A stretch of 64,000 nucleotides of DNA from Clostridia bacterium. GTDB lineage: Bacteria; Bacillota; Clostridia; Oscillospirales; Acutalibacteraceae. Where the stretch lies: positions 35,453 to 99,452 of the forward strand of contig JAFTWW010000046.1 of the NCBI GenBank assembly GCA_017465085.1, read 5' to 3'. Positions 8,234 to 23,914 of this stretch are shown here, piece after piece. How positions within the stretch are numbered: the first letter of the stretch is position 1; each line of letters begins with the position of its first letter. Position numbers and translations under genes: made by a program. The notes below the pieces were generated by a model. It worked only from the letters and a program-made list of their open reading frames with translations. It did not search any database and was not told where the DNA came from.

Positions 8234-8803
8234 ATGGAAAGTCAGTTTAAGTCGTGTTGCTTCACAGGCTACCGCCCTTCAAAATTCCCCTTTCCGCTTA
8301 GTAAGGCGAATGGGGAATATATAGAGATGGAAAACAGTCTCACAACCACCCTGATTTCTCTTTTTGAGGATGGGTGTGATACCTTTTTAAGCGGCGGCGC
8401 AATGGGGTTTGATATTATAGCCGCTGAGGCGGTTTTGGAGCTGAGAGCAGCAAGCAAGCGCCCCGTAAAGCTTATCTGTGTTTTGCCGTTTAAAGAGCAG
8501 GCAAGCGCATATACAGATGGCTGGAAAGCCCGCTACGATGCGGTTTTATCCGCGGCGGACCAAATTATTTACACTTCAGAGAATTACTATAAGGGCTGCT
8601 ACGGAAAAAGAAATAAATATATGGTTGATAACAGCGATTATGTCCTCACTTGGTTTGATGGAACGGCAGGGGGTACGAGGAACACCGTAACCTATGCGCT
8701 TAAATGCAATAAACGGGTTGTTAATCTTAAATATCTTGAGAATGAGCAGCTTTCCTTATTTGAGGATACCGTTTATTTCGTTGATTGTTCTCAGGGAAAA
8801 TAG
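8234..8803 (+). CDS. YpsA/DUF1273-type SLOG family protein
   Basis: 189 residues. The N-terminal CCFTGYRPSKF and the glycine-rich FLSGGAMGFDIIAAE segment (about 55-70) are hallmarks of the YpsA/DUF1273 branch of the SLOG superfamily, Rossmann-like proteins thought to bind nucleotide-derived ligands. DNTDYV-like and DGTAGGTRNTV elements follow in the C-terminal half. ATG 8234 is preferred over GTG 8222 because the AAGGTGAG is correctly spaced only for the ATG. Cellular role is unknown. The downstream XRE gene begins 66 bp after the stop and may be co-transcribed. Confidence 0.8.
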   Translation: MESQFKSCCFTGYRPSKFPFPLSKANGEYIEMENSLTTTLISLFEDGCDTFLSGGAMGFDIIAAEAVLELRAASKRPVKLICVLPFKEQASAYTDGWKARYDAVLSAADQIIYTSENYYKGCYGKRNKYMVDNSDYVLTWFDGTAGGTRNTVTYALKCNKRVVNLKYLENEQLSLFEDTVYFVDCSQGK

Positions 8804-8868
8804 AACACTGTCCTAATAAAACGCAAATTCTACCCGTGGTAGAGTTAAATTTTAAGAAAAAGGTAAAA

Positions 8869-9456
8869 ATGATGAGTATAACTGAAGAAAAAATTAAAGA
8901 AAATTTCGCCCATAATTTAGCGTGTTACAGAAGAAGAGCGGGTCTTACCCAGCTTGAACTTGCCGAAAAGCTTAATTATTCCGATAAATCGGTTTCCAAG
9001 TGGGAAAGGGGCGAGGGGCTCCCCGATTTATTCGTGGTTGCCACAATAGCCGACCTTTTCGGGATGACGGTTAATGATATGATAGGCGATAAGGAGGTAA
9101 AAAAACCGCTTTTGCACCGAAATAAGATTATCATTACCATACTTTCGGTGGGACTTGTGTTGCTTGTTGCCGCCATACTCTTCTTTATTTTCGAGCTGGC
9201 GTTGGAATCCTATCCCACTTGGCATATGTTCGTTTATGCCCTGCCTGCTTGCGCCATAGTAAATCTTGTTTTTGCGTGCTGTTGGTGGAGTAAGCTTTAC
9301 CGATTCCTTTCGGTTTCCTTGCTCGTATGGGCAGTTCCCGCCACGGTATTTATCGTTGTGAGCACCTTTGTTACAGTTGCCAAGCTACCTCTTATATTCT
9401 CCATAAGCGGTGTTTTACAGGTTATGGCAATCCTTTGGTTTATGATGAAAAAATAA
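8869..9456 (+). CDS. XRE family regulator with four membrane segments
   Basis: About 195 residues. An XRE helix-turn-helix (about 10-65, with LTQLELAEKLNYSDKSVSKW) is followed by a short linker and four hydrophobic segments: 24 residues from IIITILSVG, then WHMFVYALPACAIVNLVF, LYRFLSVSLLVWAVP and LPLIFSISGVLQVMAIL. An HTH with a membrane tail is a common Firmicute layout, and such proteins may sense the envelope. The start is ATG 8869 or 8872 behind AAAAAGGT; an upstream TTG frame would overlap the previous gene and lacks a ribosome binding site. Target genes are unknown. Confidence 0.85.
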   Translation: MMSITEEKIKENFAHNLACYRRRAGLTQLELAEKLNYSDKSVSKWERGEGLPDLFVVATIADLFGMTVNDMIGDKEVKKPLLHRNKIIITILSVGLVLLVAAILFFIFELALESYPTWHMFVYALPACAIVNLVFACCWWSKLYRFLSVSLLVWAVPATVFIVVSTFVTVAKLPLIFSISGVLQVMAILWFMMKK

Positions 9457-9458
9457 AA

Positions 9459-9496
9459 AATGCCGCAGATATTGATGGTATCTGCGGCATTTTTGT
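9459..9496. terminator. Bidirectional terminator
   Basis: ATGCCGCAGATA/TATCTGCGGCAT perfect stem flanked by A and T tracts, between the convergent XRE and ppa genes. Confidence 0.9.
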
Positions 9497-9498
9497 TC

Positions 9499-10026
9499 TT
9501 AAAAATTTCTATTGTAATTATCTATTGCGGATTGGATTATTTTAAGGGAATCCTCTCTGCCTGTAACCTCATCAACAGCGGTGGTCTTGTGCTCAAGATT
9601 CTTATAAACCTCAAAGAAATGGCGCATCTCATCAAAAATATGGCGGGGTAGCTCGTCAATGGATTTATAACCGTTATAGGTAGGGTCATTAAAGGGGATT
9701 GCGATAATCTTTTCATCGCTTCTGCCATTATCTATCATCTTGATAACGCCAATGGGATATGCGCGCACCAGCGTCAGCGGCTCTAAAACCTCGGAGCAGA
9801 GCAACAGCACATCAAGCGGGTCGTTATCATCACCGTAAGTGCGGGGGATAAAGCCGTAGTTTGCGGGATAGTGGGTGGAGGTGTGCAGAATACGGTCAAG
9901 AATAATAAATCCTGTTTGTTTATCAAGCTCGTATTTCTTTTTGCTTCCCTTGGAGATTTCTATAACACAGATAAAATCCTCGGGTGTTATTCTATCGGGA
10001 GCAATATCATGCCATATATTTGCCAT
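9499..10026 (-). CDS. ppa: Inorganic pyrophosphatase, family I
   Basis: 175 residues, hydrolysing pyrophosphate to two phosphates in the cytoplasm. The family I active site is visible in YPANYGFIPRTYGDDNDPLD, including the DxDPxD metal-binding aspartates, and in the downstream KIIAIPFNDP. Start ATG 10026 is supported by AGAAGG 7-8 nt upstream; a longer frame reaching 10077 has no such site. Many Clostridia use a family II enzyme or a membrane pump instead, so the family I type is worth noting. It converges on the XRE gene across a shared terminator. Confidence 0.95.
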   Translation of the reverse strand: MANIWHDIAPDRITPEDFICVIEISKGSKKKYELDKQTGFIILDRILHTSTHYPANYGFIPRTYGDDNDPLDVLLLCSEVLEPLTLVRAYPIGVIKMIDNGRSDEKIIAIPFNDPTYNGYKSIDELPRHIFDEMRHFFEVYKNLEHKTTAVDEVTGREDSLKIIQSAIDNYNRNF

Positions 10027-10101
10027 AAAATACCTTCTTTCTGAGTATATGATAGCATAAATTATAAAGTTTTTCAATAAATATTAAACCGCCAAGCGTT
10101 T

Positions 10102-10335
10102 GTAGAAATGTTCTTAGTGAACATTTCTACAGTTCTATTCGCCTACGGCAAGTTATATTGCTTCGCAGTGATATTATGCTACGCATAGTGATATTGTCCT
10201 GCGGACAGTTTATGGCGAATAGAATATCACGAAACCGATAGGTTTCATATCACTTTATTTTGAAATATCTCGCTTATTGCGAGGAATTTTCAAAATAAAA
10301 TATCACGCTGACGATAGTCAGCATATCGCTTAACA
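10102..10335. repeat. Intergenic hairpin array with mirrored spacer words
   Basis: A 12-bp perfect hairpin (GTAGAAATGTTC/GAACATTTCTAC, 10102-10130) is followed by an 11-bp stem TTCTATTCGCC/GGCGAATAGAA (10133-10143 with 10214-10224). That stem encloses four tiny hairpins: GCC-TAC-GGC, TGC-TTC-GCA, TGC-TAC-GCA and GTCC-TGC-GGAC. These are separated by AGTTATAT or GTGATATT. Beyond it come three larger hairpins (GAAACC/GGTTTC, TTTATTTTGAAA/TTTTCAAAATAAA, GCTGAC/GTCAGC), each preceded by ATATCAC, the reverse complement of GTGATAT. No coding potential is seen. It lies between the 5' end of ppa and the 3' end of the 3D-domain gene. Function is unknown. Confidence 0.75.
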
Positions 10336-10460
10336 GAAAAAAGAAAGAGAAGACTCGTTGCAAACATACGAATCTTCCCTTTTCTGTTGTTAGTGGGTTT
10401 GGGCTACTGCCCAAGTGAATTTGTACATACAAATGCGATGCTGATTCTAACCCGATATAT
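10331..10460. other. Further dense inverted repeats, possible structured RNA
   Basis: Directly after the array lie AACAGAAAA/TTTTCTGTT (about 10332-10388), enclosing AAGA-CTCG/CGAATCTT. A GTTAG/CTAAC closing pair (about 10389-10450) then encloses TTGGGC-TACT-GCCCAA and ATTTGTA-CA-TACAAAT. These could fold into a branched RNA on either strand. I do not recognise a known RNA family. The rest of the interval to 10520 shows only a weak stem that may terminate the 3D-domain gene. Confidence 0.35.
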
Positions 10461-10520
10461 TATTCTATACTAAAACAAAAACTTCGCTAACGACATTACC
10501 GTTTTGCTTAGCGGTTTTAA

Positions 10521-11585
10521 TTATTCAAGAATATAAATTTCAACGTTTCTTCTGCCGAATGCGCTGCAAGCGCTTGCGGAGGACATAAACAGGTCAACAT
10601 TAGTGGGCCTTGTTTTGATAAATCCACCCGTATCGGCGGCAATACAGTAGCCGTAGGTATATTTTCCGTCACTCGAAACGATATACATCTTAGTTCCGTA
10701 AGGAATTATATCGGGGTTAACGGCAATATATCCGGGGCCGGTGGGAACACCCGTTGAACACTTGGTGCCCGTTGAATATGCGGTGGCTTGAACGGTTTTG
10801 TGAGCCTTGTAGTTTACGGGACGGCCGTTTTTATCAAGCTCGATGGGGGTGGGGGGAGTGATTTTGGAAATGCACTTAACATCGTTGCTTGTCATAACAG
10901 CCTGCTTTTTGGTGCCGATAATCTTCTGTGTGTTTACTGCCTTGGATAGAACTGTTACCTTATCAACAACGGTTTCAACGGTAACGCCGTTTACCACCTT
11001 GGCGGTATATTCGATAAGCTCCTCGCCATCGGTACCCTGATTTATGGTGGTGGTGCCTTCTGCCTTTTCTCTTGAATAAATAACCTCGGTTTTGCAAGGA
11101 ACGGTTTTGGTATAGCTTCCCGATACATATTCTATATCGGCAAAATCGATATAAGCGGTTTCGGTGATGAGCGTATCAGCGGCAGGCTCAACCATATCGG
11201 TGCTGTCAACGTTTAGTCCCATCTCCTTAAGTATTTCGGCAACGGTGGATTCGGTAGCCGAAACCTCGGTGGTTTTATCTCCCACAGTAACGAATACGGG
11301 GAAGGTGTAAGCAATTTTAATATCGGTAACACTACCGCTTACGCTGGTGTTAAGGATCTTGAAATCGGGTGATTTTAGTTCTGCAAGATTAAGAGCAGAT
11401 CTTACATCACTTGTAAGTGAGCGGATAGTGAAGGTGTTTTCGCCGTCAGATATGCTGTAGGTTCTCACGCTGAAGCCTAACATAATGGAGGCTACGGTGG
11501 AGATAATGCAAACTACGGCAACCAAAACTCGCCTTACAGGTAAGCTTATAAGCTTGCCGAGGGCGGATTTTATAACTGTAAACAT
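10521..11585 (-). CDS. G5 and 3D domain cell-wall protein (YabE-like)
   Basis: 354 residues. An N-terminal membrane anchor or signal segment (about 18-43) is followed by DUF348-like repeats (about 60-170), a G5 domain (about 170-245, with VVNGVTVETVVDKV) and a C-terminal 3D domain (about 265-354). In the 3D domain TAYS, IPYGTKMYIVSS, AADTGGFIK and NVDLFM mark the conserved aspartates. Relatives with this layout are peptidoglycan-acting proteins resembling resuscitation-promoting factors and lytic transglycosylases of the MltA fold. It is preceded by AAAGGAGA and a consensus promoter and stands alone. A role in wall remodelling at the outer face of the membrane is inferred. Confidence 0.88.
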   Translation of the reverse strand: MFTVIKSALGKLISLPVRRVLVAVVCIISTVASIMLGFSVRTYSISDGENTFTIRSLTSDVRSALNLAELKSPDFKILNTSVSGSVTDIKIAYTFPVFVTVGDKTTEVSATESTVAEILKEMGLNVDSTDMVEPAADTLITETAYIDFADIEYVSGSYTKTVPCKTEVIYSREKAEGTTTINQGTDGEELIEYTAKVVNGVTVETVVDKVTVLSKAVNTQKIIGTKKQAVMTSNDVKCISKITPPTPIELDKNGRPVNYKAHKTVQATAYSTGTKCSTGVPTGPGYIAVNPDIIPYGTKMYIVSSDGKYTYGYCIAADTGGFIKTRPTNVDLFMSSASACSAFGRRNVEIYILE

Positions 11586-22891: not shown

Positions 22892-22896
22892 TGAGT

Positions 22897-23005
22897 TATC
22901 TTCGGGGCGGGGTGTGATTCCCCACCGGCAGTAAAGCCTGCGAGCCGTTATGGTTGATTTGGTGAAATTCCAAAGCCGACAGTATAGTCTGGATGAAAGA
23001 AGATA
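22897..23005 (+). promoter_or_regulatory. FMN riboswitch (RFN element)
   Basis: The canonical RFN landmarks are present in order: GGGGCGGGGTGTGATTCCCC, ACCGGCAGTAAAGCCTGCGA, GCCG, GATTTGGTGAAATTCCAA, GCCGACAGTATAGTCTGGAT and GAAAGAAGA. P1 is formed by TATCTTC (22897-22903) and GAAGATA (22999-23005). FMN binding should favour the terminator at 23023-23058 and shut off the riboflavin transporter. Confidence 0.97.
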
Positions 23006-23022
23006 GTATTTATATTGTATCT

Positions 23023-23784: not shown

Positions 23785-23811
23785 ATCATTGAAAATAAAT
23801 TAAATATCGGT

Positions 23812-23906
23812 CCTTATCAAGAGAGGCGGAGGGTACAGGCCCTGCGAAGCCCGGCAACCTGTTTTCAACAAGGTGCTAATTCCTGCGGATTATCCGAAAG
23901 ATGAGG
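23812..23906 (+). promoter_or_regulatory. SAM-I riboswitch (S box)
   Basis: The S-box core is readable: CTTATCAAGAGAGGCGGAGG, GGCCCTGCGAAGCCCGGCAA, CCTG...AAGGTGCTAATTCCTGC and GAAAGATGAGG. P1 pairs CCTTATC (23812-23818) with GATGAGG (23900-23906). SAM binding should promote the terminator at 23915-23941 and lower metK expression. Confidence 0.97.
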
Positions 23907-23914
23907 TTTTATGT

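Follow-up and report, generated by a model that had tools for sequence, protein, structure and literature searches.

The hairpin array described here is a full copy of the complete Gut-1 element, a mobile repeat without coding function that occurs in gut bacteria, and the catalogued Gut-1 RNA comprises only the first third of the full unit. The window, i.e., the whole 64,000-nucleotide stretch of DNA from a Clostridia bacterium that was analysed, contains a match to the Rfam family RF01706 (Gut-1) at positions 10130-10199 of the plus strand with a marginal score of 50.2 bits (cut-off 50), so that the statement of an earlier note on this DNA, according to which no named RNA or repeat family has this design, has to be withdrawn. 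The match extends over the hairpins h1 to h3 only, which together with their spacer words fit the model of 77 positions and three hairpins, whereas the full unit has a leading hairpin H0, a set of seven hairpins, a distal arm and, after it, a flipped half, and represents a mobile repeat with dispersed copies. By Weinberg et al. (2010; PMC2864571), Gut-1 is listed as a certainly structured RNA which is not cis-regulatory and occurs in the human gut only. In the literature of one open library, neither the full unit nor the phage arrays reported below were found to be described. Elsewhere in the window, matches to an FMN riboswitch (22894-23008, plus strand) and a SAM riboswitch (23811-23907, plus strand) were obtained, both well above the cut-off.

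In the window the string of hairpins is about 200 bases long and adjoins a bacterial gene. All of its parts are given for the plus strand. The left edge of the unit is formed by H0 (10101-10131), a perfect 13-bp hairpin recognized by fold and arm search, behind which a T-tract is absent in this copy. Then follow the word w0 (GTTCTAT, 10132-10138), the hairpin h1 (TCGCC-TAC-GGCAA, 10139-10151; cell listed as TCGCCTACGGCAA) with a single C-A mismatch, w1 (GTTATAT, 10152-10158), h2 (TGC-TTC-GCA, 10159-10167), w2 (GTGATAT, 10168-10174), h3 (TATGC-TAC-GCATA, 10175-10187), w3 (GTGATAT, 10188-10194) and h4 (TGTCC-TGC-GGACA, 10195-10207). The distal arm a'' (GGCGAATAGAA, 10214-10224) consists of 11 nt and is the full complement of segment a (10133-10143), which has two pairing options, locally in h1 or with this arm. 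The second half is composed of the flipped words w3' (ATATCAC, 10224-10230), w2' (ATATCAC, 10247-10253), w1' (ATATCAC, 10300-10306) and w0' (ATATCGC, 10323-10329), the last of which ends the core, and of the hairpins h5 (10231-10246), h6 (10254-10299, with an inner hairpin that enlarges it in the window) and h7 (10307-10322), which were taken from the fold. A tail hairpin follows at 10332-10388 (arms 10332-10345 and 10375-10388, 86% complementary), and tail hairpins of like form are found in some other copies of the same subfamily (L040, L210). A near copy of the window H0 is present in the genome G009 (L168), in which h6 is enlarged similarly; in most copies printed, the H0 position is occupied by a hairpin with another sequence.

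At -96.1 kcal/mol, the RNA fold of 10080-10350 is far more stable than those of 200 dinucleotide-shuffled sequences (-53.3, sd 4.4; z -9.8), not one of which attains this energy, and the DNA fold of the array yields a z of -8.3. Hairpins and word flip are real and go well beyond chance, and the parts named in the earlier note, i.e., the small left hairpins with GTGATAT-type words and the three larger right hairpins with flipped words, are borne out. It had overlooked H0 and the 11-nt helix between a and a''. Its description as a broken long palindrome holds for the mirror symmetry of the words but not for the pairing: the long-range helix joins 10133-10143 with 10214-10224 instead of half with half, so that the left part finds its closing strand in the middle of the element and not in the right half.

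The same unit recurs in the source genome, in which 29 Gut-1 matches were detected. Many of these are pairs on opposite strands, which is explained by the two halves of the unit, as the sequences of 15 copies show. The recurring order is H0, w0, h1, w1, h2, w2, h3, w3, h4, arm, w3', h5, w2', h6, w1', h7 and w0'. A first parser delivered 95 raw calls including spurious ones and a fairer parser 89 elements, 76 of them orientable; depending on the analysis, the filters kept 82, 72, 76 or 66 copies. Chains with at least three left and at least four right words were established for 58 of the 76 oriented copies, the others parsing incompletely. The words are of few kinds (GTGATAT, GTGAAAT, ATGAAAT, ATGATAT and GTGAAGT) and alike within one element, the right side carrying the reverse complement. 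A like-built array with four copies of the word ATGAATT was observed on the minus strand of the phage contig of L355 (L506, start 3704 in minus-strand coordinates), so the choice of word may be less constrained than the architecture. With G-T counted as a pair, 183 of 195 left and 160 of 206 right cells are fully paired, and the stem sequences vary between copies. In an alignment of 21 copies, two-sided changes with the pair kept occur in 21 of the 42 consensus pairs; the a/a'' helix, h3, h5 and h7 reappear in the consensus fold, which lacks h1, h2, h4 and h6 and includes one extra helix outside the proposed layout. Read outward, the loops are of the C-GNA-G or C-GNNA-G type in most cells of both halves. 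A GNRA type was rejected for the right half, where the third loop position of 106 tetraloops is T in 50, A in 43, C in 11 and G in 2 cases. A lack of homologous arrays, or of conservation in stems and words, which the earlier note had named as the outcome that speaks against it, was checked and did not occur; two of its options, a structured RNA and a non-autonomous repeat, stand.

Family identity and dispersal are firm. Within the genus, 33 of 41 genomes contain a Gut-1 match. Across the order, matches occur in 126 of 295 genomes, belonging to 69 of 148 genera, and in a phylum sample they occur in five of 398 genomes (own genome included in each case); these counts are low, as searches over more than 40 genomes pass through filters which lose weak matches. 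The first description, a stand-alone non-coding RNA restricted to the human gut, does not fit this larger dispersed unit. A search of plasmids for the element gave no match. From the genome G714 eight stretches were fetched and five were compared as near-identical copies: their cores are identical in 83-84 of 84 bases and their flanks share 8-20 of 45, the right edges being out of sight since the contigs break inside the element. Two copies from different species (L056 and L242) agree at 96.8% over 221 bp; the RNA genes to their left are different, a tRNA-Leu and a tmRNA, and the DNA to their right is unlike (87 nt available in L242). Such near-identical copies in unrelated flanks reveal mobility and recent copying. 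In a non-systematic look at the aligned flanks of related copies, neither terminal inverted repeats nor target-site duplications were noticed. The stretch L248 contains, at 461-1254, a tRNA-Ala, an element, a direct repeat whose first part is made up of the final 21 nt of this tRNA, and another copy; the repeat copies agree in 98% over 299 bp and represent a duplication edged by the tRNA 3' end.

For a large share of the copies, strand and placement at the 3' end of neighboring genes are established. A tRNA or tmRNA ends 33-49 nt to the left of segment a in 27 of 72 copies, always on the same strand, and none lies within 80 nt on the right (0 of 72, two of which had less than 80 nt there). In tRNA-linked copies H0 is terminator-like with A-tract, stem and T-tract. 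The tRNA genes of the source genome often have a terminator directly behind CCA, which suggests that H0 may be partly host sequence; against this, four copies in the genome G034 share nearly one common H0 and one of them is without a tRNA. Among copies without CCA by H0, complementary flanks with a score of at least 9 occur in 12 of 28 (15.7% of swapped flanks), as compared to four of 38 copies with CCA (6.5% of swapped flanks), and base stems are found in less than half of the copies without CCA. Five copies (L004, L064, L065, L210, L233) lie in the loop of terminator-like flank stems which run from A-rich to T-rich. Taken together, the placement of the family at 3' ends is well supported. 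Behind other tRNA terminators of the source genome (L256-L285) different stretches recur, e.g., ACTTATTACCTCTTACTTCTTCACTCTTACC and GGGATTCGAAACGACCTCC-like ones, and tRNA 3' sides therefore seem to collect several repeat families. The right flanks of L215, L230, L232, L212 and L250 contain a similar promoter-like stretch (CTTTTATGCTATAATACAC), a GG-rich piece resembling a ribosome site and an ATG; this stretch precedes different genes and could belong to some copies.

The window copy breaks this placement rule, its left neighbor being the 5' end of a pyrophosphatase gene. A possible base stem is predicted by the minimum free energy fold, in which the terminator-like 5' arm TTAAACCGCCAAGC (10084-10097) pairs, with a bulge, with 10506-10520, a possible 3' arm adjoining the stop codon of the minus-strand gene at 10521-11585. 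The stem would enclose a block of 400 nt and was not picked up by the ungapped flank test, in which the window copy (L010) scored 6.6; support for a 3'-end placement of the window copy is weak. Relatives of the pyrophosphatase gene were free of the array in all 80 loci, and the neighboring gene with a 3D domain was found in none of the 80, so that these loci do not represent an empty orthologous site. A search for the 3D-domain gene gave matches in 59 of 61 genus genomes, and 29 loci besides that of the source genome were inspected. In L169 and L170 this gene is convergent to an HTH gene across a short gap with neither array nor pyrophosphatase gene, and in L168 an array is present, but at the opposite side of the 3D-domain gene. 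In the window (8785-11585) the pyrophosphatase gene and the element lie between the HTH and 3D-domain genes, which are direct convergent neighbors in L169 and L170.

Arrays of this build are also carried by phages. Viral contigs were scanned twice by pattern, most of the matches being due to chance; in 159 loci, 27 arrays reached three or more words. Of these, 17 in eight contigs are one-sided, which is unsure for L430 and L438 as the stretch stops at the array. Considering frames of at least 60 codons, 13 of the 17 start at most 40 nt from a same-strand stop codon or overlap it, compared with two of 17 when the other strand is read and 15.4% of random positions; for frames of at least 100 codons, the values are 11 of 17, one of 17 and 6.4%. 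The genes ahead of the one-sided arrays encode terminase, portal, scaffold, tape measure, endolysin-like and holin proteins, and others are without family match. Among 47 loci with relatives of the L375 capsid gene, some of them incomplete, the word finder detected the array only in L375 itself. In two faecal phage records, L457 and L458 (MT835815, MT835476), a two-sided copy that follows a tRNA-Arg and a one-sided array were observed.

A shared strand is common to most copies. In 63 of the 76 oriented copies, segment a is complementary to a' over 4 bp or more, which gives h1, and to a'' over 7 bp or more, the two sites sharing at least 4 nt, while shuffling of the 18-nt arm region gave a mean of 1.4 and a maximum of five of 76 (50 rounds). 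The stem types at a include TCGCC, CCACCC, CCGTCC, AAATCCC, TTGCCC, GAACC and others, and as complementarity is kept in spite of these differences, the three segments must have changed together. Judged by its pairing potential, this geometry looks like a switch.

The stems also differ in their mispairs. For the final count 13 of the 89 elements were dropped for unsure orientation, only distinct cells were used, cells with at least two bad pairs were excluded and h4 was admitted only if fully paired. On the plus strand, the right-half stems contain 15 G-T and two A-C (p 0.0023), the left-half stems three and four, i.e., no bias, and both halves pooled 18 and six (p 0.023). Earlier counts differ, with 10 versus 4 on the left and 25 versus 7 on the right for the first parser, which favored G-T, and 5 versus 9 and 17 versus 3 for a fair parser without orientation check. 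Based on few pairs, the bias favors a folded plus strand, which would be RNA more than DNA.

The reading we prefer, with a probability of about one half, is that of a REPIN/MITE-like non-autonomous mobile element which works as a folded RNA at 3' ends. The window locus would be a full copy of such an element, which resembles REPINs and MITEs in size and absence of genes and is spread by a presumed mover. The family tends to settle where transcription units end, either within the loop formed by an intrinsic terminator or just behind the terminator, and the array would be read there as part of the sense transcript. Cells, each composed of a 7-nt word and a tight hairpin, would fold singly on emergence and the outer terminator stem could still close. 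BIME/REP sequences are thought to shield 3' ends, and by analogy the string of hairpins may do the same. Segment a could form h1 first and be taken over later by the arm a'', as in a switch. However, in tRNA-linked copies the gene and the array are separated by a full terminator, H0 with its A-tract and T-tract, and a transcript would therefore mostly end ahead of the array. The likeness to intrinsic terminators is limited to H0 of these copies and to the terminator-like stem around some others; the array itself is without T-tract and is an extension longer by about 170 nt.

It is unlikely that the unit is instead a true REPIN, in which a Y1 (HUH) transposase would move single-stranded DNA and recognize the hairpins and words, with no role as RNA. 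The outward-read loops fit this proposal, since C-GNA-G and C-GNNA-G loops are unusually stable in DNA. Like REPINs and BIMEs (REP doublets), the unit is a short, extragenic, gene-less inverted array of tag and hairpin in many copies (PMC3116915). It differs by 7-nt words in place of a short REP tag and by three to four cells per side with stems varying by copy. Its halves are inverted, yet each is an array, and words and not hairpins carry the symmetry. The right-half G-T bias is not predicted by a Y1 mechanism, and there is no link to Y1 genes in the genus: Y1_Tnp was found in 25 of 33 carriers and five of eight non-carriers (Fisher p 0.66), and in the genome G001 (96% complete) Gut-1 gave 10 matches and Y1 none. 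A Y1 transposase was hence discarded as candidate mover.

A DNA cruciform or protein-binding array, serving as a supercoiling sink or nucleoid site, is likewise improbable. If the words were sites of a DNA-binding protein, their likeness on both sides of the element would follow. The six inner words are in fact identical in 18 of 66 elements and at most one letter from the commonest in 57, and words agree across the halves in 6.73 of 7 letters as compared to 6.11 between elements (66 of 76 elements). This agreement is not by rung, the other order within the same element giving 6.74 (permutation p 0.85, 19 mixed elements). A rung-by-rung pairing of left and right words was rejected, since the nested order is no better and the symmetry of the words is no proof of it. 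One-sided arrays on the sense strand at phage stop codons and the right-half strand bias argue against a protein-binding array.

The original view of Gut-1 as a small RNA in its own right, with the right half incidental, agrees with the cited listing and is nevertheless quite improbable, as the right half has its own order, words and covarying h5 and h7, and the copies are dispersed repeats, many of them by 3' ends of other genes. Descent from a group IIC-like retroelement inserting behind terminator hairpins, a target taste shared with group IIC introns (PMC3898094), is highly improbable, given that the maturase domain PF08388 is present in 0 of 41 genus genomes, which largely refutes the maturase version for the genus and led to rejection of a group II maturase as mover, and that the window is without ribozyme match, none of its three Rfam matches at gathering score being a group II family.

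The folded mobile 3'-end element preferred here might, as a more far-reaching and rather doubtful proposal, belong to a new class of mobile 3'-end RNAs in clostridial gut bacteria and their phages. Such gene-less elements would insert at terminators and stop codons and fold as a chain of words and hairpins, a conserved switch of three strands (a:a', then a:a'') would set termination versus 3'-end protection, and half-elements would lie between late genes of phages. What has been catalogued since 2010 as a small RNA standing on its own appears to make up one third of a mobile element. The element is widespread in one order of gut bacteria, shows a preference for 3' ends and is also present in late operons of phages. 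If it acts on the transcript, it would tie the spread of a mobile element to the control of mRNA 3' ends, in bacteria known mostly from metagenomes, and a clean test bed would be provided by copies which are identical but stand at different genes and by the half copies of phages whose relatives are free of the array.
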